The notes under the pieces are model-generated. The model had not been told where the DNA came from and ran no database searches. It saw only the letters and a list, made by a program, of their open reading frames with translations. Both the position numbers and the translations under genes were made by a program. From NCBI RefSeq assembly GCF_009928685.1, contig NZ_WWEO01000034.1, positions 1 through 64,000 of the forward strand: a stretch of 64,000 nt of DNA, read 5' to 3'. Of this stretch, positions 16,484 to 57,201 are shown in pieces (position 1 is the first letter of the stretch; every line of letters starts with the position of its first letter). The stretch is from Mucilaginibacter agri (GTDB lineage Bacteria > Bacteroidota > Bacteroidia > Sphingobacteriales > Sphingobacteriaceae).

Positions 16484-16491
16484 TCAAAGAC

Positions 16492-17730: not shown

Positions 17731-17736
17731 AACGCC

Positions 17737-19917: not shown

Positions 19918-21226
19918 AAAGGTAAAAAAGTTCTTTGGTGCCTTAGGCCCCGGGATCGTAACAGGAGCAAGTGACGATGATCCGTCAGGCATTGCCACCT
20001 ATTCTCAGGCGGGTGCCAAATATGGCATGGCAACACTCTGGACAGTGCTGGTCACTTTTCCGCTTATGGCGGCTATCCAGGAAATGTGCGCTCGGATCGG
20101 TCTCATCACTTCGGCCGGGCTGACCACCACCCTGAAGCAGCATTACGGCAAACCGGTGCTTTACCTGATGGTAATATTCAGCGTACCTGCCATTATTTTG
20201 AACATCGGGGCGGATATTGCCGCTATGGGTGCTGTCGCGAACTTGTTGGTGCCTTCCGTGCCGCCAATTTACTTTAGCATACTTTTTACAGGGCTGCTAC
20301 TGTTCTTTATCGTCTACCTTCCTTATCAAAAGTTAGCCGCGGTATTAAAATACCTGTGCCTGACGCTGCTGCTTTATATAGCGGTACCATTCTTTACCAA
20401 ACCCGACTGGGGTGAGGTGTTAAAACAGACCGTAGTGCCTACCATCAAATGGGATAAAGATTTCATTGGCGTATTGGTCGCTATCCTGGGTACCACCATC
20501 TCTCCCTATCTTTTTTTCTGGCAAACGGCCATGGAAGCCGAGGATGTGAAAGCAGTTAAAAGGCAAGTCATGATCAATAAGCGATTACTTACCTTAAGCG
20601 ATGATTTTCCGGATAACGGGGAGAAAAGGGAAAAACGCCTGCTGACCATGCTGATCCAAAAGATGAGCATCGATGTGAATCTCGGCATGTTCCTGTCTAA
20701 CCTGATCATGTTTTTCACGATCCTGGCTACCGGTACGGCACTTTATAGTCACGGTGTCAGAAACATAGCTACAGTGGAACAGGCGGCCAAAGCCCTCGAA
20801 CCGGTGGCCGGCAAACTCTCCTACCTGCTGTTCGCGGTTGGCATCATTGGAACGGGTTTTCTGGCTATTCCCGTATTGAGCGGTTCCTTATCCTATATCG
20901 TAACAGAAACATTTGGCCTGAAAGGCAGTCTGGATAAGAAGTTCAAACAAGCAAAAGCCTTTTATGCGATCCTGATCGTTTCCGTTTTACTGGGATTGAG
21001 CATTAATTATTTTGGGATCAACCCGGTCGATGCGCTTTTATACACCGCCATACTTTACGGAGTCACCTGTCCGGTCATCATTGCCATCGTATTGCATATT
21101 GCCAACAACAAAGACATTATGGGTGATTACACGAATAAATGGCTGTCGAATACGCTGGGCGGACTATGCCTGCTGGTCATGACCATAGGTGCCGGATTTT
21201 TGATCTACCTGCAATTCTGGAAATAA
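19910..21226 (+). CDS. Nramp-family transporter with altered metal-site motifs
   Basis: A 438-residue, roughly 11-helix Nramp/SLC11-fold protein. Canonical manganese/iron Nramps have DPGN in helix 1 and MPH in helix 6. Here helix 1 reads DPSG (D24-G27) and the helix 6 segment AILGTTISPYLFFWQT has SPY (198-200), so the Asn, Met and His ligands are replaced. Similar changes are known in Nramp-related transporters whose substrate differs (for example magnesium). The fold also appears in the helix 1 region (FGALGPGIVTGASD) and in ARIGLITSAGL. Substrate cannot be assigned; import of a hard cation such as Mg is a possibility given the MgtC-like gene downstream. It overlaps the ATPase gene by 8 bp. 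Confidence 0.88.
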   Translation: MLKKVKKFFGALGPGIVTGASDDDPSGIATYSQAGAKYGMATLWTVLVTFPLMAAIQEMCARIGLITSAGLTTTLKQHYGKPVLYLMVIFSVPAIILNIGADIAAMGAVANLLVPSVPPIYFSILFTGLLLFFIVYLPYQKLAAVLKYLCLTLLLYIAVPFFTKPDWGEVLKQTVVPTIKWDKDFIGVLVAILGTTISPYLFFWQTAMEAEDVKAVKRQVMINKRLLTLSDDFPDNGEKREKRLLTMLIQKMSIDVNLGMFLSNLIMFFTILATGTALYSHGVRNIATVEQAAKALEPVAGKLSYLLFAVGIIGTGFLAIPVLSGSLSYIVTETFGLKGSLDKKFKQAKAFYAILIVSVLLGLSINYFGINPVDALLYTAILYGVTCPVIIAIVLHIANNKDIMGDYTNKWLSNTLGGLCLLVMTIGAGFLIYLQFWK

Positions 21227-21227
21227 C

Positions 21228-21890
21228 ATGAAAGCGATCAATCTGGAATTCCCCGTTATATTAGTTGGCCTGGTTTTTTTAGGCCTGGTCACTTTTACCT
21301 GTCTGGCGAATACGGCGGTGACCTCGCAGTTAACGGCGTTTAACCAACATATAGGATCGGCTATCAATAATGCCCGGTTTTCCTTAATGGATACGCTATC
21401 TCCGCATATCGGCAGTTTTTATTTCTGGATACCGTTCTATTGTTGCCTGATCTTATTGTTAGCTGGTTTCGACCGGGTGAAATTCTTAAGAACCTTCCTG
21501 TTTTTCACAGCCTATCTGTTGATAGCCGGTTTTTGCACCTGGCTGTTAAATTTAATGGGCTCACGATTTTTACCCGAAAGTAGTACAAACTTTCACTATA
21601 ACTACAGTGGCCTGGCAATGGACCGTTCGCTGATCTGCATAAATGCGACGCTTTCCTTTGGCGCAGCAATTTTCATTTCCCTGTTTTTAGACAGAAGGTT
21701 TACCGTTATTAAAGCGGCGTTGCTGCTTTTTAGCCTGGTGATCATCTATAATCTGATCTACCTCGGGGGCGACCTGCCTGTCACTTTATTGCTGGGCATG
21801 GTAGCCGGCGTAGCGACTGCATTGCTCTGCAAATCCTGGTTTAAAAGGCTTAGCGACGAATCAACGATCAACAAATTTATAGCATCATGA
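21228..21890 (+). CDS. Degenerate PAP2-like membrane protein
   Basis: A 220-residue protein with about five to six membrane helices. The layout and the ending (IIYNLIYLGGDLPVTLLLGM) resemble the PAP2 phosphatase pattern SRVYLGVHYPSDVLAG, and DRSLICINATLSFGAA takes the place of the PSGH motif. The catalytic His and Arg residues of PAP2 enzymes are missing at both places, so if related it is probably inactive as a phosphatase. It follows the Nramp-like gene by one base and overlaps the ZIP gene by 4 bp. The role may be structural or in lipid/ion handling; unknown. Confidence 0.6.
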   Translation: MKAINLEFPVILVGLVFLGLVTFTCLANTAVTSQLTAFNQHIGSAINNARFSLMDTLSPHIGSFYFWIPFYCCLILLLAGFDRVKFLRTFLFFTAYLLIAGFCTWLLNLMGSRFLPESSTNFHYNYSGLAMDRSLICINATLSFGAAIFISLFLDRRFTVIKAALLLFSLVIIYNLIYLGGDLPVTLLLGMVAGVATALLCKSWFKRLSDESTINKFIAS

Positions 21891-22612
21891 CTTCCAAAGA
21901 AATATTGTTTTCCGTCATTCCGGTATTGCTGCTTTGTTCCGGCGGGCTCATTGCCTTATACCGTCCGCCCGGTTCAGCCCTGAAAAGCTTCGTGCTTCAC
22001 TTTGCGGCGGGGGTGGTTTTCTCTGTAGTGGCCGTTGAGCTATTACCGGACATGATCAAAATTCATGATGCCAAATCTATTATCATAGGCTTTACCGCAG
22101 GCATTACAGCCATGCTGCTGATCAAACATTATACGGAAAAATTAGCGGTTAAAGAAAGTGCAACTTCAGAAGCTAAAGGCTTACCGTGGGGTATCTTGAC
22201 CGCTATCGGAGTTGACCTGCTGCTGGATGGTATCCTGTTGGGAATAGGTTTCGCGGCCGGTGCCAAAGAGGGTGTTCTACTGGCATTAGCATTAGCGCTG
22301 GAATGTTTTTCCTTGGGAATGGCTACCGTAACGACCCTGCTGGGTTCAGCCCTATCCAGGAAAACGGTCACCATTATCCTGCTTGTTTTAAGCGTGCTGT
22401 TCATCATCGGTGCGCTGATCGGCTTATTATTATTACATGCAGCAGGAGACAAGGTCCTGGAACTGATCCTTTCCTTCGGTTCAGCGGCTCTTTTATTCCT
22501 GGTAACAGAAGAACTGCTGGTAGAGGCGCATGAGGAACGGGATTCTCCCATATTTACCGGAGCATTCTTTGGCGGGTTTTTAATTTTCATGATCCTGGGC
22601 ATGGTCATATAA
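21887..22612 (+). CDS. ZIP-family metal transporter
   Basis: A 241-residue ZIP (SLC39) protein with eight predicted helices. Helix 2 region reads LHFAAGVVFSVVAVELLPD; helix 4 has VDLLLDGILLGIGFAAG, matching HNxxDG without the His; helix 5 has LALECFSLGMA in place of HExPE; and an EELLVEAHEE segment follows helix 7. The central loop contains little histidine (KESATSEAKG). Altered histidines suggest a changed metal preference or direction. ZIPs move Zn, Fe or other divalent ions into the cytoplasm; a ZIP in an export operon is unusual. It is inside the metal operon, overlapping the gene before by 4 bp. Confidence 0.85.
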   Translation: MTSKEILFSVIPVLLLCSGGLIALYRPPGSALKSFVLHFAAGVVFSVVAVELLPDMIKIHDAKSIIIGFTAGITAMLLIKHYTEKLAVKESATSEAKGLPWGILTAIGVDLLLDGILLGIGFAAGAKEGVLLALALALECFSLGMATVTTLLGSALSRKTVTIILLVLSVLFIIGALIGLLLLHAAGDKVLELILSFGSAALLFLVTEELLVEAHEERDSPIFTGAFFGGFLIFMILGMVI

Positions 22613-22619
22613 CAACATC

Positions 22620-23309
22620 ATGGCGAAAAAAAATAAATTCAATATTTATCTGATGGATGCCCATCACAAACTATATGTGTCGCTGGTAGTGGCCGCCATA
22701 TTTTTTATGCTGCTGATCGGCCGTTTTTCCGGCCCTATTCATTTTATGATCACCTGGCTGGCTTATGCCGCTACGTCACTAACGCTATCAGGCCTGACCA
22801 TTTTCAATATACACCCGGCAGAGATCAGCCGTGAGGCACATGACCAGGATTCGAGCCGGACACTTGTTTTTGGTTTTGCGTTGCTGGCCTCGCTGGCAAG
22901 CCTTTTTGCGATCCTGATCCTGCTGAAAAGCACTGCTGCGGGGGATAAAGAGCAAATGACCGGGCAAATATTATTGTCACTGGCTTCAGTAGTAAGCTCC
23001 TGGGTGCTGGTGCATACCATCTTCACCTTCAGGTATGCGCATTTTTTTTACTGCGATATCGATAAGGATGCCGACGGAAAAAATCCTAAGCCCGGCGGGT
23101 TGCAGTTTCCGGAGGAGGATAAGCCCGATTATCTGGACTTCTGTTATTTTTCTTTTGTGATCGGTATGACCTTCCAGGTCTCCGATGTGCAGATCACCTC
23201 AAAAAGGATCAGACGGCTGGCGCTTATGCATGGCCTGCTCTCCTTTGGGTTTAATACCATTATTGTAGCACTCAGCATTAATGTCGTTGCCGGCTTAATG
23301 CAAAAATAG
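22620..23309 (+). CDS. DUF1345 membrane protein
   Basis: A 229-residue membrane protein of the DUF1345 family. It has the family core WVLVHTIFTFRYAHFFYCD, the GGLQFPEEDKPDYLDFCYFS segment and GMTFQVSDVQITSKRIRR, then a final pair of helices (NTIIVALSINVVAGL). Five membrane helices are expected. The family is widespread and its function unknown. It follows the ZIP gene by 7 bp in the same operon. Confidence 0.85.
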   Translation: MAKKNKFNIYLMDAHHKLYVSLVVAAIFFMLLIGRFSGPIHFMITWLAYAATSLTLSGLTIFNIHPAEISREAHDQDSSRTLVFGFALLASLASLFAILILLKSTAAGDKEQMTGQILLSLASVVSSWVLVHTIFTFRYAHFFYCDIDKDADGKNPKPGGLQFPEEDKPDYLDFCYFSFVIGMTFQVSDVQITSKRIRRLALMHGLLSFGFNTIIVALSINVVAGLMQK

Positions 23310-23317
23310 ATCAACTT

Positions 23318-23494
23318 ATGAAATGGACGAACGCAGACTACCCTTATGAAATGAACGACTTGGAACCGCATGTCAGGGAAAAGGCGATTGAGATCGCTAA
23401 CCAATTGAGAGATGAAAGAGTTGTCTCTGAATTGAATATTGTTTCGGAGGCGATCAAACGCGCGCAGGAATGGTTTTTAGAAATGGAAGGGTAA
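23318..23494 (+). CDS. Short conserved-looking protein (58 aa)
   Basis: The reading frame starts MKWTNADYPYEMNDLEPHVR and ends EWFLEMEG. It lies 8 bp after the DUF1345 stop and 1 bp before the next ATG, which is the spacing of a real operon gene. The WTNxDYP opening with a REKAIEIANQL helix resembles small bacterial proteins of about 60 residues with unknown role that I have seen annotated as hypothetical. Function unknown. Confidence 0.65.
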   Translation: MKWTNADYPYEMNDLEPHVREKAIEIANQLRDERVVSELNIVSEAIKRAQEWFLEMEG

Positions 23495-23495
23495 T

Positions 23496-24098
23496 ATGAA
23501 GATTGAATTTAAAGCATCTACAGAGGAGGGCTTGAACAAATACCTATTTGTAAAACAGCCTGATGAAAGCCGGGAAGGCGAAAACGCGCATATTAGTTTT
23601 CATCATTACCTGCTTTTAGCAAGCCGCCTGACCGAGGGAAAGTCCTGTTTTGTGCTGACCCGGTATTCGCCCTACTTAAAGGAAGTGCTTACGGGAGTTC
23701 AATCAACGGATTGGCATTATAATGTGATCGCAGACGATTTTCAGGGTCTGGGTGCTGACCTGGGGTTTAGTCTTTCGCACAAGTTGACTAACGGCAATTC
23801 GGTTAAAGAGCAAAGCGCTTACTTCCCTTTAAGGGACCTGTTGACCTTGCGAAGTTTTCCGGAAGATACCTTTGGGGACAAATCATCGCACGTTAGCATA
23901 TTCGCTTTAAAACCCGGAACAACGGAAGATATCCGGTCATTTTTAAATGCAAAAAGAGCCCCTTACCTACCTGAGCTTTTACTTGGAAATGAACTTTTTA
24001 TACATATTTCCTGCAGCAAATCATCCGGTTACTATGATACAATTTTAATAAAATCAGTTCAAAGCCTGGCATCAGTAATCACGGTGACCAGTACCTAA
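23496..24098 (+). CDS. Hypothetical protein (200 aa)
   Basis: No family recognised. It is soluble, mixed alpha/beta, without signal peptide or membrane helix. Noticeable segments are SFHHYLLLASRLTEGKSCFV and DFQGLGADLGFSLSHKL. It sits between the 58-aa gene (1 bp) and the MgtC-like gene (13 bp) in the long plus-strand run, so it is probably co-expressed with the metal and envelope genes. Confidence 0.65.
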   Translation: MKIEFKASTEEGLNKYLFVKQPDESREGENAHISFHHYLLLASRLTEGKSCFVLTRYSPYLKEVLTGVQSTDWHYNVIADDFQGLGADLGFSLSHKLTNGNSVKEQSAYFPLRDLLTLRSFPEDTFGDKSSHVSIFALKPGTTEDIRSFLNAKRAPYLPELLLGNELFIHISCSKSSGYYDTILIKSVQSLASVITVTST

Positions 24099-24111
24099 TT
24101 ATAAAGTTAAA

Positions 24112-24585
24112 ATGGGAATAAACACTGAAAGCGAATGGACAATCGTCCTGAAATTATTACTGGCCGTTTTCCTTGGTGGGGTTGTTGGCCTCGACAGGGA
24201 AAAACATGGCAGGAGTGCCGGCATCCGGACTTACGCCGCGGTTTGCCTGGGTGCCACATTATTCACGGCGATTGGTGAACATTTGGGTGATTTGGCTGCC
24301 GCATCCAGGATAATAGCAAATATTTTGGTGGGTATTGGGTTTTTAGGTGCGGGGATCATTTATAAAAATGACGTGACCAATAGCTCAAACGGGTTAACCA
24401 CAGCCGCTACTATTTGGTGCACTGCCGGAATAGGTGTGGCAGTAGGCATGAATATGCTGATCATCGCTTTTGTAGCAACAGGGGCACTATACGCATTACT
24501 TGCGCTTCATCATCAAAGCTGGTATACTAACTGGAAGAAAAAGATGCACGCTAAACACGGAACTGAAAAAAACGACGAGGAATAA
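24112..24585 (+). CDS. MgtC/SapB family membrane protein
   Basis: A 157-residue protein with the MgtC hallmark segments: GLDREKHGRSAGIRTYAAVC, then ILVGIGFLGAGIIYKND and SNGLTTAATIWCTAGIGVAV, giving four to five helices. It lacks the long C-terminal cytoplasmic domain of virulence MgtC, so it is a short SapB-type form. The family modulates the F1Fo ATPase and Mg-related physiology in other bacteria; direct transport is doubtful. It is 2 bp upstream of the site-2-protease-like gene. Confidence 0.9.
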   Translation: MGINTESEWTIVLKLLLAVFLGGVVGLDREKHGRSAGIRTYAAVCLGATLFTAIGEHLGDLAAASRIIANILVGIGFLGAGIIYKNDVTNSSNGLTTAATIWCTAGIGVAVGMNMLIIAFVATGALYALLALHHQSWYTNWKKKMHAKHGTEKNDEE

Positions 24586-24587
24586 CC

Positions 24588-25919
24588 ATGGAAATAGTAA
24601 TCATGATCGTCCAGTTCATGCTGGGCATTTCGTTAATGGTGACCGTTCATGAATTGGGACATTTCCTGGCTGCAAGAGCCATTGGCATAAAAGTGAAAAA
24701 ATTCTATTTGTTTTTTGACACCTTCGGCTGGCGCCTGTTTCGCTTTCATTACAAAGGCACCGAATTTGGAATTGGCTGGTTACCCATTGGCGGGTATATA
24801 CGGATGATAGGTACTATCGCCGATGATGAGAATGAGCCGGATGAAGATGTTAACGTCCCTACGACCCAACGCTATTATTCAAAACCGGTTTGGCAGCGCA
24901 TGATAGTTATGTCAGCCGGAATTTTGATGAATCTTTTGCTTGCCTTAGTCATTTATTGCAGCCTTTTCTTGTATTACGGGCGAAATCAGATCACAGGTCT
25001 TGGCAGCAGTTTTACGATCCTTCCCGGGGAACTCGGAATTCAAGCAGGCCTTCAGCCGGGAGATCAGGTAACCGCGATCAATGCCGATTCATTGCTTTAT
25101 GAAGACGAATTGCTTAGTACTCATTTAATGCATGGCAATACGGTACTTTCCATTGTTCGGAAACATGGCAACGAAAGGGTGCACTTGCATGTAGCGGTTT
25201 CCCCAAAGATCATGCAGCTGGTAGCTGATAAAGGCTTAACCCAGTTCTTCTCCATTAAAGCAGGGTTTAAAATCGATTCCGTATATACCAATCTCGATCT
25301 ACGGAAGAATACTGCATTTAAAAATGCGCATATCATTGCATTGAATGGTGATTCCGTGCGAACCTATAATGATTTTATCATCCGTCTGAAGGAGAATAAG
25401 CAACGGCAATTATATCTGACGGTCATTCATGATGGAAAAACCAATACCATGCTGGCCCATCGTGACAAGGATGGTCATATTGGCTTTAGTCTTGATAGCA
25501 AGCTGCCATCCTATAAACCGGAAAGTATTAATATCAGCCAATCCCTGACTGCAGGTTCGTCCAAAGTTTGGAACACCATCAGTGAAAACACCAAAGGATT
25601 AAGCCAGATAGTTAAAGGGGAAGTTAAAGTGAAGGATGGGTTACTTGGACCTATAAGGATCGCCGGCCTTTTCAGCAGCCATTTCGATGGAAAACGATTT
25701 TGGAGCTTGGTCGCCTTATTATCGACAGGACTTGGCCTGATCAACCTCCTTCCTCTGGCTCCCCTTGATGGTGGAGTTATGGCGGTCCTTTTTTGGGAAG
25801 CATTAACCGGAAAAAAAGCCAGCCGAAACTTTTGGGCAGGGTTTTACCTGTCAGGCCTGTTGTTTGTTATTCTGCTTTCGGCTTATATTCTTTTCAATGA
25901 TATTCGTTCAATAACCTAA
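24588..25919 (+). CDS. M50 site-2 protease-like membrane metallopeptidase (RseP family)
   Basis: A 443-residue intramembrane zinc protease. HELGH at 21-25 lies in the first helix, the following strand VKKFYLFFDTFGWRLF is typical of RseP, and the third zinc ligand is in PLAPLDGG (D394). A PDZ-like domain spans about 130-200 (GELGIQAGLQPGDQVTAINA). RseP-type enzymes release anti-sigma factors or signal peptides in the membrane. A second copy in an accessory operon could act on a local substrate, for example a peptide or an anti-sigma factor, but none is evident. Catalytic residues appear intact. Confidence 0.9.
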   Translation: MEIVIMIVQFMLGISLMVTVHELGHFLAARAIGIKVKKFYLFFDTFGWRLFRFHYKGTEFGIGWLPIGGYIRMIGTIADDENEPDEDVNVPTTQRYYSKPVWQRMIVMSAGILMNLLLALVIYCSLFLYYGRNQITGLGSSFTILPGELGIQAGLQPGDQVTAINADSLLYEDELLSTHLMHGNTVLSIVRKHGNERVHLHVAVSPKIMQLVADKGLTQFFSIKAGFKIDSVYTNLDLRKNTAFKNAHIIALNGDSVRTYNDFIIRLKENKQRQLYLTVIHDGKTNTMLAHRDKDGHIGFSLDSKLPSYKPESINISQSLTAGSSKVWNTISENTKGLSQIVKGEVKVKDGLLGPIRIAGLFSSHFDGKRFWSLVALLSTGLGLINLLPLAPLDGGVMAVLFWEALTGKKASRNFWAGFYLSGLLFVILLSAYILFNDIRSIT

Positions 25920-27784: not shown

Positions 27785-30700
27785 ATGAGTTATCATTTTT
27801 CAAAATATATTCTACAGCGCATACCCATCTTTCCGGTAAACCGTTACAGGCAGCCACTATCCGAAACGCTGCTTGATCCCTTATTTCAGGCGGCCCTTTT
27901 TCTGGCCAGTCCCCAATTCTATGCGCGACTGTTAAATGCCGGCTTTGACATCTCAAAAATGAACGGCAGGGAAATTAAAAGCGCTACGCGGTACCTGAAC
28001 CGCGCATGTTTTCGTTCAACGCCTTTCGGATATTTTGCATCGGTCAATGTTGGCGTGTGGGAAAGTGGCGGACATATTCATTTAAGAGAAAATGCTGATG
28101 AAATGCAATCATTTATTCAACCTGCGGAATTGGTCTTACAATCTTTATTCCGGCAACGAGCAGCTGAAAATCCAAATATTAGCTATGAACCTAATCCGAC
28201 TTTGTATCGGGTAAAGAAACATTTTCGCTTTATCAGGGAAGAGTCGGGCAATAATCATAAAAGAAGCTATCAATTACAGTCTTCTTTATATGCGGTAATT
28301 TTAAATGCGCTGTTAAAGTATTGCAAAAACGGAAAAAGCAGGAATTTAATCATTGCGCGGATCTGCAGGGATGCGCGATGTACGCAGGAAGAGGGGGTTG
28401 AATACTTCGAATTTTTGAAGGATGCACAAATCTTGCTTCCAAAGCAGCGTGCGACGATCACTGGCCATGTTGAAGATCTTTTGGATCACAAATCGCTAAC
28501 CATTAATACGGCGATATTAAATTTAGGCCCTGCATATGAATTAAAAAAGCAAGGCTTGTTATTAGCGCCATCCCTTCAAATTCTCGACAGCCGGTTGCGA
28601 ACGCTCATCGCTGAACCTGCTGAAGAAAAAAGCCTGCTTAATACAATATTGGTTCGCAAAACAACGGTCAATTCAGTCGATATCAGTTACCAGGCAGATT
28701 TGAAACAGGGTTTATCTGCGTTGGACAAATTATGCCCGGAAGACCAGTTACCGGCATTAAAGGAATTTAAAGGAAAATTCCGAAAGCACTTTGAAGGTGA
28801 ACGTATCCCTTTATTACTGGCGCTTGATCCTGAATTGGGTATCGGCTACCAGGCAGAACCGCTTGAATCACCGAATCCATTATTAGAAACCGTTAATATC
28901 CGTCCAAGGGGCGGAAGACTGTCAACAGTATTCTGGACCGAAGCCCACCGATGTCTGATGGCCTCCTGGATTAAAATGGAGAGCCGGAACGATACCGTAA
29001 TATTCCTGGAGGAAAAGGAATTAAATAGACTGCCGGGATCTCAGCCCTCAGTTACCAACCTTGGTTCTTCGGCGCTTTTTAATATAAGTGAGGATGGGGT
29101 ATTTATTGAAAGTGCCGGAGGGTGTAACCCGCTTGCACTAATTGGTCGGTTTACACTGGCTGATCCTTCGATTTCAAGGGTCGGTAAAGATATTGCCGCG
29201 CAAATTGAAAGTTTAAACCCCGACCTGATCTTTGCCGAGATCCTGCATTTGGCAGACCCCCATATAGATAATGTAAATCGCCGTGAGCAGTTATGGACCT
29301 ACCAGCTGCCTGTACTGGCAGCCAGTATTCCTGGAACGGAAACCATAACACTTGATGACCTTTACGTAGAACTGGCCGGGAGCGTGGCGCTGATTTGGTC
29401 GAAAAAACATCAAAAGTACGTTATTCCGAGGTTAACCAGCGCTTATAACCATAGTATTGACCAGCTTCCTCTGTTTCGCTTCCTTGCTGATCTTTCTTAT
29501 CAATACGGGCGGACGCAATTGTCTTTTGATCTCAGCCATTATTTTCCGGGTTTCAGTTATTATCCCCGGGTAATGTATCAGGGCGTAATACTCAGTTTGG
29601 CTACCTGGATCATCAGCCCTGATGAATTAATGCAACTTCAAAACGAAAACGGAGGAACCGAGGCTTTCATGAAATTAGCTGAAAGGCATCGGTTACCGAA
29701 GAAATTCATAGTTTCCGAGGGAGACCAACAACTGGTTTTTGATCAGCTTAAGGAGGAAGATTTACGCCTATTCCGTGAGACAATACGTACTCATAGACAA
29801 ATGGTCATTCGTGAATACCTCCCGCAAAAATCAAAAGAAGCAGTAATCGGTTCAGAATCGGGCAACCAATATCATGTTCAGTTTAATGCTGTTATGATAC
29901 CCGATGAACCCCTTCATTTGCCGGCACCGCATTTTGTAGCTACAGAACACCATCAGCAACGGAAATTTATCCCGGGTACTGAATGGCTTTATCTGAAACT
30001 GTATATTCCGCGCTTAGCCGTGAACCGATTACTGCTTCAGTTGCAAAAGGTGATCAATAAAAAGTTCATCCATGGCAGAATCAGCCGCTGGTTTTTTATC
30101 CGTTATGAAGATCACGCGCCGCATATTCGTTTACGTTTTAAGTTCGATCCCTTAGATATCGATGCTGTATTAGCGGCTTTACGGTTAGTGTTGGAAGATA
30201 ATGTGCACCAGCATCTGATCAGGGAATATCAATTAGATGTGTACAGCAGGGAACTGGAAAGATACCAGGCAGCCGGCATCGAAGAAACCGAGGAATTTTT
30301 TTGGTATAGCAGTGAATTTGTAGTGCATTTTTTAAAAGCCATAAAGTCCGGCAATCGTATTCCGTCCTTTCAGGCTGCTGCATTTACTGTTAAAGTGATC
30401 ACCGAAGGCTTTTATTCTGCTGCAGAGCAACAACTGGAGTTTTGGCAAAACGCATTTGAAAACTATTTTACAGAGTTTGAAGGAAAGAACATCAAAGTCG
30501 AACTTGACCATAAATACCGTGTTCACAGCCAGGAACTCGATGTTTTTCTGCATGCGCTGGAACCCTTTCCGGAAAAACAGCTTCAGCATTGGCTGAAAAA
30601 AATGCGGCTTAAAGCGATAGAAATTAATAAAAAGCTTGATAATAATGCGTCAAAAAGAGACTACCTGCTTAGTCTTATACATGTGCACCTGAATAGGATG

Positions 30701-30796
30701 TTTGCCGACCAGCAGCGGGAACAGGAAATGGTCATTTATTTTTTGTTATCTAAATGGATGCGTTCCAGAATTGCCAGGCAAAAAAAGGGTATCTAA
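27785..30796 (+). CDS. Full-length LanB-type lantibiotic dehydratase
   Basis: A 1003-residue class I lanthipeptide dehydratase. The N-terminal glutamylation domain begins FPVNRYRQPLSETLLDPLFQ and has the conserved CFRSTPFGYFASVNVG (about 75-90). The C-terminal elimination domain (SpaB_C type) begins near 730 (GTEWLYLKLYIPRL, then SRWFFIRYEDHAPHIRLRFK). Both domains are present in one chain, as in true LanBs, so it should use glutamyl-tRNA to convert Ser/Thr to dehydroamino acids. No LanC cyclase, protease-transporter or LanT is found nearby. The candidate substrate is the Thr-rich peptide encoded about 1.9 kb downstream. It ends 2 bp from the convergent response regulator. Confidence 0.9.
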   Translation: MSYHFSKYILQRIPIFPVNRYRQPLSETLLDPLFQAALFLASPQFYARLLNAGFDISKMNGREIKSATRYLNRACFRSTPFGYFASVNVGVWESGGHIHLRENADEMQSFIQPAELVLQSLFRQRAAENPNISYEPNPTLYRVKKHFRFIREESGNNHKRSYQLQSSLYAVILNALLKYCKNGKSRNLIIARICRDARCTQEEGVEYFEFLKDAQILLPKQRATITGHVEDLLDHKSLTINTAILNLGPAYELKKQGLLLAPSLQILDSRLRTLIAEPAEEKSLLNTILVRKTTVNSVDISYQADLKQGLSALDKLCPEDQLPALKEFKGKFRKHFEGERIPLLLALDPELGIGYQAEPLESPNPLLETVNIRPRGGRLSTVFWTEAHRCLMASWIKMESRNDTVIFLEEKELNRLPGSQPSVTNLGSSALFNISEDGVFIESAGGCNPLALIGRFTLADPSISRVGKDIAAQIESLNPDLIFAEILHLADPHIDNVNRREQLWTYQLPVLAASIPGTETITLDDLYVELAGSVALIWSKKHQKYVIPRLTSAYNHSIDQLPLFRFLADLSYQYGRTQLSFDLSHYFPGFSYYPRVMYQGVILSLATWIISPDELMQLQNENGGTEAFMKLAERHRLPKKFIVSEGDQQLVFDQLKEEDLRLFRETIRTHRQMVIREYLPQKSKEAVIGSESGNQYHVQFNAVMIPDEPLHLPAPHFVATEHHQQRKFIPGTEWLYLKLYIPRLAVNRLLLQLQKVINKKFIHGRISRWFFIRYEDHAPHIRLRFKFDPLDIDAVLAALRLVLEDNVHQHLIREYQLDVYSRELERYQAAGIEETEEFFWYSSEFVVHFLKAIKSGNRIPSFQAAAFTVKVITEGFYSAAEQQLEFWQNAFENYFTEFEGKNIKVELDHKYRVHSQELDVFLHALEPFPEKQLQHWLKKMRLKAIEINKKLDNNASKRDYLLSLIHVHLNRMFADQQREQEMVIYFLLSKWMRSRIARQKKGI

Positions 30797-30798
30797 GC

Positions 30799-31527
30799 CT
30801 ACCGGTTGGTTTTGATCAGCCTTTCATCCATACGTTCTAAAAATGCCTGTTTATATTGGTCACCCATCATTAGACTTTCGCCGTTATGTAAACGGACTTG
30901 CGCCCTTTCAATCACCTTAACAAAATTTATGTTGACAATGAATGATCGGTGAATGCGGGCAAATATGGTTTTCGGCAAATGCCGTTCAATTTCTTTAATA
31001 GTCAGGTAAGTGGTGTGCTTTCCATCATTTGTATATATATGGATATAATTTGCTGAGCCTTCCATGTAGATCACTTCGTCAAATCTGATTTTGACCAGCC
31101 TGCCCTTAACCTCACTTTTGATCGTGAAAAAATCATCCATTGGCGCTGCGGCAATTTTTGCCGGCCTGATAATTTTTCTTCTGGCTTTTTGAATGCATTT
31201 AGCAAAGCGCTCATAATTGATCGGCTTTAACAAAAAATCGAAAGCTTCCCGGTCAAAGGCCTGGAGTGCATATTCTGGAAACGCGGTTGTAAAAACCACC
31301 GTTGTATACAGGTTGACCATTCCTGCCAGTTCCAGGCCGGATAATTGTCGCATATCAACATCAACAAAAGTGATATCAGGTGCGTTTTCACCGGTAAGAA
31401 ATGGTAGTGCCTCCAGTGGATTTTGCGCCTGACCTATCAGCGTCAGGTCGGGCGTTAACTCAATATATTCTTTTAGAAGCGCAATAGCATCCGGTTCATC
31501 GTCGATCACGTAGCAGGTAAAATTCAT
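30799..31527 (-). CDS. LytTR-family response regulator
   Basis: A 242-residue two-domain regulator: a receiver domain (1-120) with acidic patch DD at 9-10, probable phospho-acceptor D56 in FVDVDMRQLSG and TTAFPEYA, then a LytTR DNA-binding domain (about 135-235; IKSEVKGRLVKIRFDEVIYM, HIYTNDGKHTTYLTIKEIE, IHRSFIVNIN). It overlaps the kinase gene by 4 bp, so they form a two-component pair. Convergent with LanB, it probably controls the peptide locus. LytTR regulators paired with bacteriocin genes are common. Confidence 0.92.
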   Translation of the reverse strand: MNFTCYVIDDEPDAIALLKEYIELTPDLTLIGQAQNPLEALPFLTGENAPDITFVDVDMRQLSGLELAGMVNLYTTVVFTTAFPEYALQAFDREAFDFLLKPINYERFAKCIQKARRKIIRPAKIAAAPMDDFFTIKSEVKGRLVKIRFDEVIYMEGSANYIHIYTNDGKHTTYLTIKEIERHLPKTIFARIHRSFIVNINFVKVIERAQVRLHNGESLMMGDQYKQAFLERMDERLIKTNR

Positions 31528-32582
31528 AGGTTCAGGGTTAAGGTTATCTTATATATACTGTCATTTTCTGTGACGGCAAGCTGGTGCCTTTCAGGAAATA
31601 AGTTGGCTAAACGTTTTTTAATATTTTTTAAACCTACGCCGCTGCTGGGATAGGGCGTGCTTTTTCTTTTCAGATTTTGTGTAGTAAAATGCAGGCCGTT
31701 TTGATTGACCTCCAGGTCGATCTTACCTGAATTACTCCTATCGCCAAGATCCCCATGTTTAAGCATATTCTCTACCAGGGTAAGAAGGATTAGCGGGGGG
31801 ATCATCACTTCTTTAAGCTTTCCCTTTTTAGTGAACTTAAGATATATTTCACCTTGAAACCGTAACGCACTTAGTTCAATCAGTTTATCGATCTGTCCAA
31901 TTTCCGCTAATAATGGAACCATCCGGTTATCCTGACTGCTTAATAAAGAGTAGCGCATCAATTCGGAAAGGAGCATGACTCCCTTGCCTGCCCTGTCTGA
32001 AAGTTTATGGACCGCATTAAAAATGAAGTTCAGCGTATTAAAAAGTAAATGAGGACTGATCTGATTTTGCAAAAAGGCATTTTCGGCGGTGATAAATTTG
32101 TTCTCCAGCTCCAGTGAACGGGTAATTTGTCTAAGACTTTCCTTTTCCATGAAGTGGTTCCGTTCCTTAAACTTTACCATATATAGCATCGACCAATAAG
32201 CGATACTGAACCCTATAAAAAATATTTCCCGGAATATATTGGTGAGATAAATCTTTTCATGCATTGTATCTAAGGCATACCGGACCGGGCCGCCGCCGGT
32301 TAGCCAGACATCAATATGAAGTTTCATCCATAAGAAGAACAATAATTCGAGGATGATCAATGCAATGGAGATCAAATAGGGTCGCGAGGTTCTAAAAAAT
32401 GCAAAGTCTAAAATGATGTGGGCGTTTCCATAGAATAGGAATATATTCAGCGCATAATAAATAACATATTGAAGTGGTGAGGCGAGTAGACCAACGGTAA
32501 TATTGATTAAGGCAAGTTCATAAAGAATGAACAAAGCCCAAACCAGTAGGTGTCTGAACAAAATAACCTTTGATATATTCAT
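31524..32582 (-). CDS. LytS/YehU-type sensor histidine kinase
   Basis: About 352 residues from the ATG at 32582, chosen because it starts with the first membrane helix (MNISKVILFRHLLVWALFIL); an upstream in-frame start at 32621 would add charged residues. Four membrane helices (10-135) have no large extracellular sensor domain. The His_kinase dimerisation motif NQISPHLLFNTLNFIF carries H178, and the ATPase part has VENMLKHGDLGD and SGVGLKNIKKRL. It would pass phosphate to the overlapping LytTR regulator and may sense a membrane or peptide signal. Divergent from the precursor peptide gene. Confidence 0.9.
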   Translation of the reverse strand: MNISKVILFRHLLVWALFILYELALINITVGLLASPLQYVIYYALNIFLFYGNAHIILDFAFFRTSRPYLISIALIILELLFFLWMKLHIDVWLTGGGPVRYALDTMHEKIYLTNIFREIFFIGFSIAYWSMLYMVKFKERNHFMEKESLRQITRSLELENKFITAENAFLQNQISPHLLFNTLNFIFNAVHKLSDRAGKGVMLLSELMRYSLLSSQDNRMVPLLAEIGQIDKLIELSALRFQGEIYLKFTKKGKLKEVMIPPLILLTLVENMLKHGDLGDRSNSGKIDLEVNQNGLHFTTQNLKRKSTPYPSSGVGLKNIKKRLANLFPERHQLAVTENDSIYKITLTLNL

Positions 32583-32644
32583 TATAACGTCTCTGCGGGC
32601 ATTTGCCTTTCTGCATATCACAATTGCCTCTCTGTGTAATAAAG

Positions 32645-32675
32645 TTTAGGTTCGATTTTCATCACGGTAGTTTTG
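32645..32675 (+). promoter_or_regulatory. Bacteroidota-type promoter for the precursor peptide
   Basis: TTTA (32645-32648) is followed after exactly 19 bp by TAGTTTTG (32668-32675). The second matches the TAnnTTTG -7 consensus of Bacteroidota; the first matches the -33 TTTG in three of four bases. Transcription would start near 32682, about 10 bp before the ATG at 32693. The element lies within the 110-bp gap to the kinase gene, a likely place for LytTR control. Confidence 0.5.
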
Positions 32676-32692
32676 ATATAAAAATTACCAAT

Positions 32693-32875
32693 ATGAAAAA
32701 CATTAAATCAAAAAGGTTGCACAAAAGTTTAGAAACTATTTGCGACTTTAACAGGGGAAATACAAAAGCTTACAGCGAAACTACCAAGCCCACTGAAACA
32801 GATCCAACCACGGCAACGGTCACCATCATCATCACAACAGTTAATACGGGGCACGCGGGGAAAATGTTAATATAA
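32693..32875 (+). CDS. Thr-rich RiPP precursor peptide, class I lanthipeptide-like, no Cys in core
   Basis: A 60-residue peptide beginning MKNIKSKRLHKSLETICDFN, resembling the Lys-rich leaders of Bacteroidota class I lanthipeptide precursors (KLxLxKETI pattern). The following part, from about residue 30, has ten to twelve Thr (e.g. TDPTTATVTIIITTVNTG) and ends HAGKMLI. The only Cys is C17 in the leader, so the presumed core cannot form lanthionine rings. I chose the ATG at 32693 because it gives this leader; a longer frame from 32603 has no family sense. It follows a good promoter and sits beside a LytTR/LytS pair and a LanB gene. It could be a linear dehydrated peptide, a decayed lanthipeptide or a signal peptide for the kinase. 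Confidence 0.7.
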   Translation: MKNIKSKRLHKSLETICDFNRGNTKAYSETTKPTETDPTTATVTIIITTVNTGHAGKMLI

Positions 32876-32968: not shown

Positions 32969-34114
32969 TTGCTTAAGTCAGAATTATCAAATGTGGAGGA
33001 TTGTGTCGGGATTATTGTTAACACAAAAGAAATAATAAGCGAGCCCGGCAATGCAGTTGTTCAGGCAGCGCTATATGAGCGGTTGGTCTCGTCCTGCACA
33101 GAACTAAAACAAAGAATGATAAGCGAGGTGTTCGGCTCCGCCAAAGACCATGTTATCAGGCGTTACGTACAGTTCCACCAGGCCGGATTGATCACTTTAT
33201 CAGATATCGTATTTCAACACGTTCGCAAGGTCGAGGTGCCATTGATCCCCGGGAAAAGCGAATTGCTGATTAAGACCTTAAGCGCCTTGCAGCAATTGCT
33301 CGAATTTATCGCCCGGCAATTTTATGCCTATTTTGATCTTATTCATGGGATCACCCAATATGAAAGCGATCTCACCAGTAATCAATTCCGGTCTAAAATT
33401 GAAACGCTTGCACCATTATTGGAGCGGCAACCCATCGAGCCATCGTTGGTCAATGTGTTTTTCAGGAGCATGGAAGATAGTTTGGATCAATTACGTGTCC
33501 AAACCATCAGTTACGAGCAAGCGATCTATGTTGATCAACTGCTCCGGCTTATTCAGTTGAAACTGGAAGAAGGGAATACGGATACTATACGTTTTACGGC
33601 TTTACTGTATCAGCAGAATTTTAACAGCACCTATTTTGAGTCCTGGTACCGCCAGACCCATTTGACTGTACAAAACGGCGGAACACACGTGGAGTCAAAA
33701 AGATTGATCATAGAACCAATTTCACAGGTCCTGGGTATTTCGGCCGGCCGCAAGCCATTAGATATGCTATTACGCGATTGGCTGTCCGATCATATCGCGA
33801 CAGGCCCGCAATCAGCGACCCGCAAGATAAAACAGGAAGTTGTGGTGCCCCGGTTGCCTTTGATCCTTTCCGTGCCGCAACTCGCACTCTTTGTTAGGCT
33901 TTGTTATCTGGAAGGGTGCTTTCAAATATCGAACATATCTAATATCATGCGATTCTTTACGGATCATTTTGAGACCAAAAAACAACCCCATGTTTCTGTT
34001 AAAAGCTTTAGCCGAGCATTTTATAGTGCGGACCAGGCTACCGCTGCCATGGTCAGGGATTTCCTGCAACGAATGATCATTATGATCGATAAAACCTATT
34101 TTCCCAAAACATAA
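32969..34114 (+). CDS. ICE-associated hypothetical protein, RteC-related C-terminus
   Basis: About 381 residues if started at TTG 32969; no ATG lies near, so the N-terminus is uncertain. The protein is helical. The end (VKSFSRAFYSADQATAAMVR, then IMIDKTYFPK) resembles the tail of RteC-like proteins of Bacteroidota ICEs, which are followed here by a true RteC-like gene. The protein probably belongs to the transfer regulation module. No catalytic motif. Confidence 0.55.
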   Translation: MLKSELSNVEDCVGIIVNTKEIISEPGNAVVQAALYERLVSSCTELKQRMISEVFGSAKDHVIRRYVQFHQAGLITLSDIVFQHVRKVEVPLIPGKSELLIKTLSALQQLLEFIARQFYAYFDLIHGITQYESDLTSNQFRSKIETLAPLLERQPIEPSLVNVFFRSMEDSLDQLRVQTISYEQAIYVDQLLRLIQLKLEEGNTDTIRFTALLYQQNFNSTYFESWYRQTHLTVQNGGTHVESKRLIIEPISQVLGISAGRKPLDMLLRDWLSDHIATGPQSATRKIKQEVVVPRLPLILSVPQLALFVRLCYLEGCFQISNISNIMRFFTDHFETKKQPHVSVKSFSRAFYSADQATAAMVRDFLQRMIIMIDKTYFPKT

Positions 34115-34209: not shown

Positions 34210-35043
34210 ATGTTAACTAAATTTAGCGACCGTTTATATGCTGATCTGAACAGGGATTTAAATGCCCTAACGCTTGAAGAAGATCAGTTGATCAAGCGGT
34301 ATGAAAAAAGCATTCATGCTTGTGTTAAATACCTGAAAAAATTAAAAGACTTTTGCAAGGTTAATGATCCGGGTACACCCGCTGAAGAAATTCAATTCTT
34401 CAAGCATATCAAACCTAAGTTCAAATCCCAGCTCATCTATTACCAATCATTACTTAACCTTGAGATCCGGCGTCCGATTGGTGATTGCAGTGCGATTTCC
34501 GATTACCTGAAGAATGAAGCAAAGGTTCTGCACCATTTTTTTGAATGTAACTTATCTTTCTATCAGTACGTCCGGACTCAGGCGACCTATTTGGATGATT
34601 ATTACTTTGTACGAGGAAACTATGATGTCTACCTCGATCCGGATCAATGCGTAATCGACTTCGATCCTGCCTTTAGTACCACCCATGACCACAAGTTGGC
34701 GCAGGTACTGGCCAGTGAAATGCTACAGGAACACCTGCAATCTGCTGTGCAGCGGTTACACCAGAAGGATACTGTTATGGTTACGGATATGGAGTTAAGG
34801 GATTTTGACTGGCAGCAAACCAAATGCGGACTGATCGAACTCATCTATTGCTGGCACGCCACGGAGGCCTTCGGCAAAAAGAACTTGAAAAGCATCGTGA
34901 AATTTATAGAAAAAGTATTCAATGTATCGCTGGGTAACTTCTATGACACCTTTGACTGGTTGAGCAGCAGACCCAGCCCGACGACCTATATCGATGAAAT
35001 GAAAGAGGCTTTCCTCCTTCGCGTTCAGAAACGACTTAAATAA
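34210..35043 (+). CDS. rteC: RteC-like regulator of ICE transfer
   Basis: A 277-residue RteC-domain protein: EEIQFFKHIKPKFKSQLIYY is the family signature, followed by helical segments and the C-terminal LIELIYCWHATEAFGKKNLK and FNVSLGNFYDTFDWLSSRPS. In CTnDOT, RteC activates excision genes in response to a two-component system. Here it lies upstream of the tra genes and is followed by a terminator. No antibiotic-resistance gene is nearby, so the inducing signal may differ. Confidence 0.88.
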   Translation: MLTKFSDRLYADLNRDLNALTLEEDQLIKRYEKSIHACVKYLKKLKDFCKVNDPGTPAEEIQFFKHIKPKFKSQLIYYQSLLNLEIRRPIGDCSAISDYLKNEAKVLHHFFECNLSFYQYVRTQATYLDDYYFVRGNYDVYLDPDQCVIDFDPAFSTTHDHKLAQVLASEMLQEHLQSAVQRLHQKDTVMVTDMELRDFDWQQTKCGLIELIYCWHATEAFGKKNLKSIVKFIEKVFNVSLGNFYDTFDWLSSRPSPTTYIDEMKEAFLLRVQKRLK

Positions 35044-36153: not shown

Positions 36154-36468
36154 ATGGCGATCTATCAAATAAATAAAGGCATCAATAAAGCCATCGAATT
36201 TAAAGGTTTGAAGGCTCAATATATTGGTTACCTCGGCGCAGGCCTGGTAGGCTTGCTCGTCCTTTTCGCCATACTGTATATTACCGGTGTGCCGGTCTAT
36301 ATATGTATGCTGGTCATTGCCGGTGCGGGTACCTTATTGTTTACCCAGGTTTACCGGTTCAGCCATAAGTATGGCCAATACGGACTGATGAAACGCGGTG
36401 CCAGGCGATTCCTGCCCGGGTATCTGAAATTTAATTCACGCAAATTATTCACCCGAAGAACCTATTGA
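36154..36468 (+). CDS. traF: DUF4133 conjugal transfer protein TraF
   Basis: A 104-residue protein starting MAIYQINKGINKAIEFKGLK, the DUF4133 signature, with two helices (about 24-70) and a basic end (GARRFLPGYLKFNSRKLFTR). It is VirB3-like. The start at 36154 is supported by a purine-rich AAAGGAAGGAAA just upstream, a rare strong ribosome site in this window. It precedes the TraG ATPase as in all CTnDOT-like loci. Confidence 0.9.
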   Translation: MAIYQINKGINKAIEFKGLKAQYIGYLGAGLVGLLVLFAILYITGVPVYICMLVIAGAGTLLFTQVYRFSHKYGQYGLMKRGARRFLPGYLKFNSRKLFTRRTY

Positions 36469-36470
36469 TC

Positions 36471-38912
36471 ATGGCCGCCTACACTAAAGCAGAACAAATC
36501 TTTCCGATCTATAAGGTCGAACATGATTGCATGGTTTCCGTTTATGGGGACCTGACCATCGCGTACAGTTTACAATTACCGGAGCTATTCACACTTTCGG
36601 AAGAAGATTATGAAAACTATCATCAATCCTGGGTCAGAGCGATCAAGGTACTGCCGAGACACAGCGTTTTACATAAGCAGGATATTTTTATACGTTCTGC
36701 ATACAATGGTGCGGAAGGACTGCCGGAGAACTTTCTTACCAGGGCTGCTGACCGGCATTTTAAAGGCCGTCCTTTTTTGAAGCATACCTGTTACCTGATG
36801 CTAACCAAAAAAGCCGCTGACCGCAAACAGGCAACCAGCGGTTTTTCAGGAATCATGCGTAAAAGCGTTAGTCCAAGGCAAACAACTGATGGAAGGATGC
36901 TGACCGAGTTTTTGGAAAAAGCAGGCCAGTTCGAGCGCATCCTGTGTGACAGTGGGTTAGTGACGATGCAGCGGTTGAAAGATCAGGAACTTTGCGGAAC
37001 GGCTAACCGTCCGGGCCTGCTGGAACAGTATTGCTTTCTTTCGGACAAAGACAGTCAGCCCCTGCTGAAAGATATCCATTTAAAAGACCGTTTGCAGATC
37101 GGAGATCAGCACGCCCAGCTTTTCACACTGGGAGACTGTGAGGATCTACCGGGCGTTTGCGGCAGCAGGTTGACCTATGATAAATACAGTACCGATAAAA
37201 CCAAGTTTCCGATAGGTTTTGCCGCACAGCTTAACCTGCTGCTGCCCTGCGATCACATATACAACCAATATATTTTCATTGGTGATACGGGGAAGGTATT
37301 GAAGCAGTTGGAAGCCAAAAAGCTGCGTTTACAATCACTTTCCGCTTATAGTCGGGAGAATGCGATCAGCCGCGACGCAACCAATGACTTTCTTAATGAA
37401 GCTATCGGCCAGCAACGCCTCCCGGTCAAAGCGCATTTTAATGTGCTGGCCTGGACCGAGAACCGCGATCAATTGCAGGAGATCAAAAATCAGGTCGGCT
37501 CAGCAATGGCTCAGATCGGAGCTTCCGTTAAACTGGAGTCTGACGCTGCCGCGCAGGTATGGTGGGCCGGTATTCCCGGCAATGCCGCTGATTTTCCGGA
37601 GAATGACACGTTTGATACCTTCCTTGAACAAAGCACCTGTTTTCTGAACCTGGAGACGAATTACCGCAGCGATCAGCCAGCCTCAGGCATTCGTTTTTGT
37701 GACCGGCTGACAGGCAGGCCTGTTTTCGTCGACCTGTTCGATGCACCACGAAATACCGGGATCACTTCCAATATGGGTATGCTGGTCTGCGGCACGTCCG
37801 GTGGTGGTAAAAGTATGACCGTCAACCATATTTTGCGCACTTTGTACGATCAGGGTGCACATTGTGTCACTGTCGATATCGGCGGTAGTTATAAAGGTTT
37901 ATGTGAACTGGTCGGCGGTTACTATTTTACTTACGAGGAACACAACCCGATCCGTTTTAATCCTTTTTTCCTGCCTCCCGGACAGCTACTGGATACCGAG
38001 AAAAAGGAGAGCCTGAAAGCATTGCTGGTGACGCTATGGAAACAGGAAGATGAAAGTTTTATCCGCAGTGAGTATGTGGCGCTATCGAACGCGCTCCAGG
38101 GTTATTATGACCATATTGGTCAAAATGCGGCTGAATTTGCCTGCTTTAATTCATTTTTCGAATACCTGGAACAGCATTATGTGGAGTTGCTCAAAAAGCA
38201 GAAAGTAAAAGATAAAGATTTTGATATCGATAACTTCCTCTATGTGCTTCGCCCATATTACAAGGGGGGCGAGTTCGATTACCTGCTGAATGCGACCGGC
38301 AACCTGAACCTTCTCGATCAGCGTTTTGTCGTCATTGAACTGGATTCGATCAAAGACCATCCGATCCTTTTCCCGGTAGTAACCCTGATCATTATGGAAA
38401 TGTTCCTTTCTAAAATGCGCAAGCTTCAGGGGGTGCGCAAAGTGCTGACGATAGATGAGGCCTGGAAGGCTATCGCCAATTCAGGCATGGCCGGATTTAT
38501 CCAGTATGCTTTTAAGACCATGCGGAAATTCAACGGCGTGCCGAATGTCGTTACCCAGGAACTGGATGATCTCATCAGTTCCCCCATTATCAAGGATGCG
38601 ATCATTAATAACGCCGATATCAAGATTTTGATGGATATGCGGAAGTTCATGAACAAATTCGATAAGCTGCAGGATACGCTGGGCATGTCCGATAAAGGTA
38701 AGACCCAGGTCCTGTCGGTGAATAAGGATAACCGGGAGATCTACATCGACCTCGGCGGGCAGGTAATGAAGGTCTATAAAAATGAATTGGCCCCGGAAGA
38801 ATATTTTGCTTATACCACAGAGGGAAGGGAGCGGGTCAAAGTCCAGGAGTACGCTGCCAAACATGGCAGTATGGAAAAGGGCATTGAGGCCCTGGTCGCG
38901 GAACGTAAATAA
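36471..38912 (+). CDS. traG: TraG-family conjugation ATPase (VirB4-like)
   Basis: About 813 residues from the ATG at 36471, two bases after the TraF stop. An N-terminal VirB4/TraG domain (KAEQIFPIYKVEHDCMVSVY) is followed by an ATPase domain with Walker A CGTSGGGKSM near 440 and Walker B VLTIDEAW near 662. The conserved VVTQELDDLISSPIIKDAII segment follows. It energises assembly of the mating channel. Length and motifs are normal. Confidence 0.93.
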   Translation: MAAYTKAEQIFPIYKVEHDCMVSVYGDLTIAYSLQLPELFTLSEEDYENYHQSWVRAIKVLPRHSVLHKQDIFIRSAYNGAEGLPENFLTRAADRHFKGRPFLKHTCYLMLTKKAADRKQATSGFSGIMRKSVSPRQTTDGRMLTEFLEKAGQFERILCDSGLVTMQRLKDQELCGTANRPGLLEQYCFLSDKDSQPLLKDIHLKDRLQIGDQHAQLFTLGDCEDLPGVCGSRLTYDKYSTDKTKFPIGFAAQLNLLLPCDHIYNQYIFIGDTGKVLKQLEAKKLRLQSLSAYSRENAISRDATNDFLNEAIGQQRLPVKAHFNVLAWTENRDQLQEIKNQVGSAMAQIGASVKLESDAAAQVWWAGIPGNAADFPENDTFDTFLEQSTCFLNLETNYRSDQPASGIRFCDRLTGRPVFVDLFDAPRNTGITSNMGMLVCGTSGGGKSMTVNHILRTLYDQGAHCVTVDIGGSYKGLCELVGGYYFTYEEHNPIRFNPFFLPPGQLLDTEKKESLKALLVTLWKQEDESFIRSEYVALSNALQGYYDHIGQNAAEFACFNSFFEYLEQHYVELLKKQKVKDKDFDIDNFLYVLRPYYKGGEFDYLLNATGNLNLLDQRFVVIELDSIKDHPILFPVVTLIIMEMFLSKMRKLQGVRKVLTIDEAWKAIANSGMAGFIQYAFKTMRKFNGVPNVVTQELDDLISSPIIKDAIINNADIKILMDMRKFMNKFDKLQDTLGMSDKGKTQVLSVNKDNREIYIDLGGQVMKVYKNELAPEEYFAYTTEGRERVKVQEYAAKHGSMEKGIEALVAERK

Positions 38913-57193: not shown

Positions 57194-57201
57194 GAGAAAT
57201 T

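Follow-up and report, generated by a model that had tools for sequence, protein, structure and literature searches.

The 64,000-nucleotide stretch of the Mucilaginibacter agri genome examined here (contig NZ_WWEO01000034.1, positions 1 to 64,000), referred to below as the window, contains a cassette with genes for a LanB dehydratase, a LytTR response regulator, a LytS-type histidine kinase and a divergent Thr-rich peptide, the kinase and regulator genes being placed tail to tail with lanB. The gene content is conserved among related loci, the LanB residues are intact, LanC is lacking, the peptide cores are mostly Cys-free and a repeat lies upstream of the peptide gene. In appearance this is a novel type of linear signal peptide with chemical modifications, here carried on a mobile element. 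The best explanation, a linear, dehydrobutyrine-rich, self-induced signal under LytTR control, is a prediction from sequence that, taken as a whole, has in our estimate about an even chance of being right.

We infer a peptide that is dehydrated, stays linear, is exported and sensed and, in the window, controls the mobile element. In the proposed mechanism, the LytS kinase would activate the LytTR regulator, which would bind the direct repeat and turn on the divergent peptide gene. LanB would bind the N-terminal leader and dehydrate the core Thr residues to dehydrobutyrine via glutamyl-tRNA; with no core Cys and no LanC, the product would remain linear. The same kinase would read the mature peptide as a self-induced signal; in the window, where the cassette lies next to rteC within a conjugative element, the signal would feed into the regulation of that element.

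The features of the cassette are the following (aa, amino acids):

27785–30796, plus strand: LanB dehydratase with glutamylation and elimination domains, 1003 aa; PF04738 (E 2.7e-72, residues 31–662) and PF14028 (E 1e-51, residues 734–990) match near end to end
30799–31527, minus strand: LytTR response regulator, 242 aa; PF04397 (E 4e-21), PF00072 (E 8.2e-14)
31524–32621, minus strand: LytS-type membrane histidine kinase; PF06580 (E 1.8e-16), the 365-aa frame opening at GTG
32609–32639, plus strand: putative LytTR operator made up of two half sites of 10 bp at a spacing of 21 bp
32668–32675, plus strand: TAnnTTTG, candidate promoter element from a pattern scan
32693–32875, plus strand: precursor peptide, 60 aa, with a Thr-rich core beginning at TDPTTATV

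The first half of the kinase contains hydrophobic segments, and an in-frame ATG near 32582 looks likelier than the GTG to be its start.

Distribution of the cassette

The genome has three LanBs, one of which was recovered as two pieces. The other two LanB loci (L007 and L008) have a LytS/LytTR pair alongside, as in the window, and short, Thr-rich, Cys-free peptides of 49 and 46 aa divergent from the kinase. Peptide homologues thus occupy the equivalent position at all three LanB loci, and a profile built from 27 peptides found exactly three places in the whole genome.

Related loci were collected by scanning named genomes with the three LanBs; of 171 relatives, the best 80 were taken. The 26 most similar named loci (L009–L034) belong to Mucilaginibacter, Pedobacter, Daejeonella, one Chitinophaga and one unassigned metagenome-assembled genome, and 24 of them combine LanB, regulator, kinase and peptide. 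The two exceptions, L016 and L018, have no kinase and look broken. A further 31 regions were taken around LanB places, among the matches listed, in 18 other genomes of the same genus; six of them repeat or nearly repeat named loci. The kinase-regulator pair is present in 26/31. In L164, L169 and L177 the pair is missing and a LanC is close by, in L160 and L187 both are missing, and L170 has the pair and adjoins the LanC cluster of L169. The family peptide was found in 24 of the 26 pair-bearing regions, 22 times at E ≤0.01 and twice by eye; L159 (E 0.47) and L184 (E 0.037), with weak profile scores, were admitted by eye. L171 and L188 yielded no peptide by profile, and L188 has a possible candidate. 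In L171 (2937–10406), a single kinase-regulator pair is flanked by two LanB-like genes, and no family peptide was found there.

The comparisons below use 43 non-redundant cassettes, whose LanBs are 24–44% identical to that of the window. L161, L165, L168, L172 and L173 were dropped from this set as duplicates of named loci, L175 as a near copy of L024, L181 because it looks frame-broken and lacks the usual start, and L180 for its doubtful start; the distant loci L060, L071 and L081 were dropped as well. Three LanB loci with a pair (L047, L067 and L088) have no recognisable peptide. SusC/SusD genes stand directly before or behind lanB, in similar order, at L008, L025, L027, L028, L029, L031, L163 and L182. 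SusC lies near the cassette in 13/43 loci, a raw count that was set aside as evidence.

Independent versions of the cassette were found farther afield. Seven Geothrix/Holophagaceae loci of the Acidobacteriota combine LanB with a LytS-like kinase and a LytTR-like regulator; their peptides are Cys-free in all six loci examined, with a distinct leader (SFRKESIQ) and short Thr-rich ends such as TLTTTIFT, and no LanC was found in any of the five genomes searched. Six Dyadobacter-type loci also contain the pair, the leader being mostly KKERLVNL-like and the ends having zero or one Cys; a LanC match is present in 5/6 of these genomes.

The precursor peptide family

The open reading frame (ORF) of the peptide, 32603–32875, opens at TTG, but the start codon conserved in the family is an ATG at 32693, which gives the 60-aa product. 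This peptide contains 13 Thr, 3 Ser and one Cys, at residue 17, and from TDPTTATV onward 8 Thr and no Cys. The original prediction of a Thr-rich precursor whose sole Cys lies outside the core agrees with these counts.

Across the 43 loci the peptides are 46–67 aa long, and a DP[T/I] motif is present in 34. The region from this motif on has on average 6.9 Thr, or 32% Thr, versus 4.7% in the accompanying LanB, kinase and regulator proteins. The comparison of related loci that the prediction had called for came out in its favour: the core is without Cys in 38/43. A Cys ahead of the core, in the leader, occurs in 19/43 loci and is absent there in 24/43.

The possibility that the Thr-rich ORF is a chance reading frame was excluded by the positional homologues, by co-occurrence with LanB and by the rate of non-synonymous change, which was below that of synonymous change (pN < pS) in all 13 listed peptide pairs (63–96% aa identity, 9 of them distinct). 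Among the matches listed, the peptide profile hit 10/13 LanB-bearing and 0/12 LanB-free genomes of the same genus that both the LanB and the peptide search had covered (Fisher p 1.1e-4), a comparison in which some of the counted genomes had contributed to the 27 training peptides. No NCBIfam precursor family fits the 27 peptides scanned; the best hits (E 0.011) were Shiga toxin models matching single members and were taken as chance.

The dehydratase and the predicted modification

The LanB of the window is full-length, as originally predicted: besides the two Pfam domains, it aligns to NisB across residues 20–992. By alignment, Y70/R73/R77 correspond to Y80/R83/R87 of NisB, mutation of which reduces or abolishes dehydration (PMC4341554, text seen in part), and R784/R826/H966 correspond to R786/R826/H961, mutants of which glutamylate without elimination (PMC4979651, likewise). 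The counterparts of Y80, R83, R87, R786 and H961 are identical in 43/43 loci and that of R826 in 42/43. Two other LanBs from Bacteroidota required a GluRS and tRNA-Glu pair of Bacteroidota origin to dehydrate their substrates fully (PMC9993889).

On this comparative basis the peptide is very probably the substrate of LanB, and a dehydrated product is likely; we are also fairly confident that it would be linear. The predicted linear dehydrated product is well backed by the comparison of loci, in the Cys-free cores (38/43), the retained LanB residues and the LanC-free genomes (18/36, see below).

A different chemistry, such as aminoacyl transfer or thiopeptide-like cyclisation, occurs in some LanB relatives, and the thiopeptide-type model TIGR03891 does match the C-terminal domain of the window LanB. 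Nevertheless, the window LanB has both domains, and its R784, R826 and H966 are the counterparts of R786, R826 and H961, the residues for elimination in NisB; such a chemistry is highly improbable here. PEARL enzymes are small LanB ligases without the elimination domain; the window LanB is not PEARL-like, having PF14028 with its residues kept.

LanC in cassette-bearing genomes

The predicted lack of LanC at the locus held, and the whole-genome search with PF05147 gave a single match, on another contig: the C-terminal region of a 782-aa protein in which a kinase is fused to LanC. A LanC elsewhere in the genome together with a Cys-containing precursor had been named as the finding that would overturn the prediction. 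Formally this combination exists, but the LanC belongs to a separate kinase-LanC fusion cluster. This cluster (L006, contig C10, 5460–9431) comprises the fusion, a protein whose match to HopA1 is sub-threshold and a peptide that has 15 Cys and seven CGTSNEPG units, and resembles class III–V lanthipeptide systems. This LanC is no answer for the cassettes of those other genomes that are without one.

Among 36 cassette-bearing genomes of the same genus, 18 have no PF05147 match (E ≤0.001) and the other 18 have one. These are 35 of the 37 other peptide-positive genomes plus G165; G257 and G279, with weak matches, were left out. In an earlier, overlapping set (28 loci, 27 genomes searched), 15/27 genomes were LanC-free, and 11 of the 15 had a complete cassette. 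As half of the cassette genomes lack a LanC match, the cassette is independent of LanC.

Completion of the product by LanC or another thiol partner from elsewhere, giving a lanthipeptide or a thiol adduct, would find its ingredients in the single LanC domain of the genome, in the leader Cys of the window peptide and of 19/43 loci, and in the half of the cassette genomes with LanC matches. It is nonetheless very improbable, given the other half without a match, the fusion of the genome's LanC to a kinase next to its own Cys-rich peptide, and the loci with no leader Cys (24/43) or no core Cys (38/43).

Upstream repeat and candidate promoter

A two-block motif search upstream of the 43 peptide genes, with spacings of 17 to 26, gave the best score at 21 bp (12.7 bits per locus), compared with 9.3–11.2 for the other spacings and 7.2–7.6 for five mononucleotide shuffles, a control in which shared ancestry is uncorrected. 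The direct repeat begins at −93 to −80 from the peptide start in 36/43 loci. A matrix trained without the window's clade (L009–L021) placed the best site at −95 to −80 in 13/13 clade loci; the same test at spacing 20 or 22 did so in 3/13 and 2/13. In a scan of the whole window the putative operator ranks first with 17.9 (the next scores 13.8), which proves nothing on its own, as shuffled windows score 11.8–19.0. The motif TAnnTTTG, which we take to be a possible Bacteroidota −7 promoter element, lies at −25 to −23 in 8/13 clade members and at −34 in L009, and is absent in 4. LytTR sites consist of direct repeats of 9 bp, separated in most cases by 12 bp, immediately upstream of the promoter (PMC6193735, consulted in part), and the repeat with 21-bp spacing reads as a typical putative site of the LytTR type.

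The mobile element

To the right of the cassette the window continues with P381, RteC and TraG:

32969–34114, plus strand: P381, a helical protein (phmmer family; structure model with pLDDT 84.5)
34210–35043, plus strand: RteC homologue, regulator of CTnDOT-like elements (PF09357, E 4e-62)
36465–38912, plus strand: TraG conjugation ATPase, marking a conjugative element (TIGR03783, E 8.6e-288)

RteC follows the cassette in 10/10 intact testable loci of the window's clade; L010, which ends too early, and the broken L016 and L018 are outside this count. Within the 20 kb taken around L007 and L008 there is no RteC or TraG. P381 is the partner of the cassette in 26/43 loci, and its C-terminus has a weak similarity to RteC (39 columns, probability 49%). 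Foldseek returned nothing for its fold at E ≤0.001. VIA-align gave Z 9.8 for MukF (root-mean-square deviation 3.3 over 122 residues), mostly over residues 1–133; such values are common for helical models and were considered uninformative. Distant P381-like proteins also occur in L190 (5263–14964) and L192 (4712–14941), beside an RteC homologue, a kinase-LanC fusion of 862 and 873 aa, respectively, and SusD; L190 in addition has a cyclic-nucleotide-binding protein and a redoxin by Pfam.

In CTnDOT, rteC is activated by RteB, and its product in turn controls the genes for excision and transfer (PMC1976400, text seen in part). From this analogy and the position beside rteC, the cassette is proposed to feed into the regulation of the element; its control of the conjugative element is a tentative and rather doubtful suggestion.

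Upstream of the cassette, the window carries genes for an RND/HlyD efflux set, a P-type ATPase and an Nramp transporter, part of a metal-handling region (12113–25919) that also includes a weak ZIP match, MgtC and an M50 protease. At 54245–58398 a DNA polymerase III alpha-like gene adjoins a gene for an IMS-family (Y-type) polymerase.

Evidence against a linear, self-induced signal

A number of results weigh against this explanation at its several steps. As to the chemistry, the core does contain Cys in 5/43 loci (L027, L028, L029, L182 and L184), and there are the LanC matches in half of the cassette genomes. In Chitinophaga sp. CF118 (L023, 4773–9070), LanC adjoins a LanB and a peptide without core Cys; this is possibly an intermediate or a neighbouring second cluster. 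As to export, Pfam searches of part of the window ORFs found no dedicated exporter or leader protease beside the cassette. As to regulation, the reverse training, from the clade to the rest, did poorly, recovering the site in 16/30 loci (10/30 at spacing 20 and 1/30 at spacing 22), and a third split in 12/24 (10/24 and 4/24, respectively). No operator upstream of lanB was seen in the window's clade by the matrix scan, which gave moderate scores in some other loci, e.g., L047 and L186.

As to the mobile element, a strong P381 lies within 15 kb of TraG in 18 of the 95 TraG places used, and of the strong P381 places, 42 fall in genomes searched for TraG and 18 of these have a TraG near them, both counts being among the matches listed; 54 P381 places were rated strong by our own cut, 12 of them in genomes outside the TraG search. 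There is no general tie between the cassette and conjugative elements.

As to sensing, peptide distances correlate with those of the kinase sensor in a partial Mantel test (r 0.33, p 0.001) that controls for the kinase core, the receiver and LanB. In the control comparisons, the LytTR domain correlates with the sensor too (0.44), and the leader (0.30) does so more than the core (0.22). Because the LytTR domain behaves alike and the leader exceeds the core, the covariation is unspecific, and the test was dropped as proof of sensing.

Role of the peptide

The earlier suggestion that the adjacent LytS/LytTR pair senses the product found indirect support only: the pair constantly accompanies LanB and the peptide, and the peptide gene is preceded by a repeat of the LytTR type, whereas the peptide-sensor covariation adds nothing specific. 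As in autoinducer circuits, the peptide gene adjoins a membrane kinase and a regulator. The predicted role in signalling is the best-supported one for the peptide, and we regard the chances that the mature peptide is a signal as evenly balanced.

The product might instead be a linear dehydrated antimicrobial, the production of which is merely regulated by the two-component pair. LanB enzymes mostly make antimicrobials, and a kinase-regulator pair is frequent in lantibiotic clusters (PMC3091789, partial text). In the listed contexts, with only labelled families annotated throughout, no immunity, exporter or protease gene recurs, whereas the kinase-regulator pair does; the antimicrobial role is considered unlikely.

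The prediction had also noted that no exporter or protease was seen. This needs correction for the window, as an M50 protease (24588–25919) and the RND/HlyD efflux set (12113–17730) are encoded upstream, but neither is linked to the cassette: both sit among the metal-transport genes, and gene content on the upstream side varies between related loci. A C39 exporter domain was not found in the whole genome. Without a cassette-linked exporter or a C39 domain, and with P381 adjoining the peptide in 26/43 loci, a modified peptide could be kept in the cell or envelope and act unsecreted and directly on its regulators, for instance the kinase, P381 or RteC. P381 is, however, not alongside in 17/43 loci, and LytS-type kinases usually sense from the membrane; retention of the peptide is clearly unlikely.

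Comparison with known systems

The cassette resembles class I lanthipeptide systems (nisin: NisA, B, C, T, P, R and K) in its full-length LanB with the same active-site residues, its short Thr-rich leader-core peptide and its two-component pair. It differs in having no linked LanC, exporter or protease, a core that is Cys-free in 38/43 loci and a regulator of the LytTR type beside the peptide gene. Its enzyme is a class I LanB, but the cassette departs from the class in two defining features, core Cys and LanC.

The agr and com systems are peptide autoinducer circuits with LytTR regulators. Like them, the cassette groups its peptide gene with genes for a membrane kinase, a LytTR regulator and an enzyme that modifies the peptide, and it has an upstream direct repeat putatively of the LytTR kind; in contrast, its modifying enzyme is LanB, its hosts are Gram-negative and no exporter was found. 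Linaridins are largely linear peptides with Thr-derived dehydrobutyrines and so, by description, are akin to the proposed product; they are not known to be made by LanB. CTnDOT shares with the window a two-component pair near rteC and the transfer genes. The pair of the window is LytS/LytTR rather than RteA/RteB (for which no search was made), a peptide and LanB are added, and the link to rteC is one of position. A LanB cluster of Mucilaginibacter lappiensis (PMC9062424), from the same genus, likewise has a thiopeptide-like lantibiotic dehydratase; it has six precursors and two radical SAM enzymes, and no two-component pair is mentioned in the part of the paper available.

A large lanthipeptide survey took LanC as the starting point and discarded ORFs without core Cys (PMC7268733), and an earlier one, with lanC as its screen, remarked on Bacteroidota whose LanBs outnumber their LanB-LanC clusters (PMC3091789). 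Going by the portions of these papers at hand, the cassette family would escape both, owing to the LanC-based starts and, in the former, the core-Cys filter. A survey of Bacteroidales found no LanB there (PMC10352776, seen in part). Nothing recognised as this cassette was found in the open-access literature, subscription papers being outside the search.

The cassettes may be part of a widespread use of LanB-made, ring-free, dehydrobutyrine-rich signals in Gram-negative bacteria, namely Bacteroidota and, with another leader, Acidobacteriota, each signal with its own LytS/LytTR pair, some of which act as the pheromone switch of conjugative elements upstream of rteC; we put this forward tentatively, at somewhat less than an even chance. 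Should the product prove to be a linear dehydrated signal, a role beyond lanthipeptides would be added for LanB enzymes, and Bacteroidota would have a defined, testable peptide-signalling circuit, together with a concrete hypothesis for the control of some of their conjugative elements.

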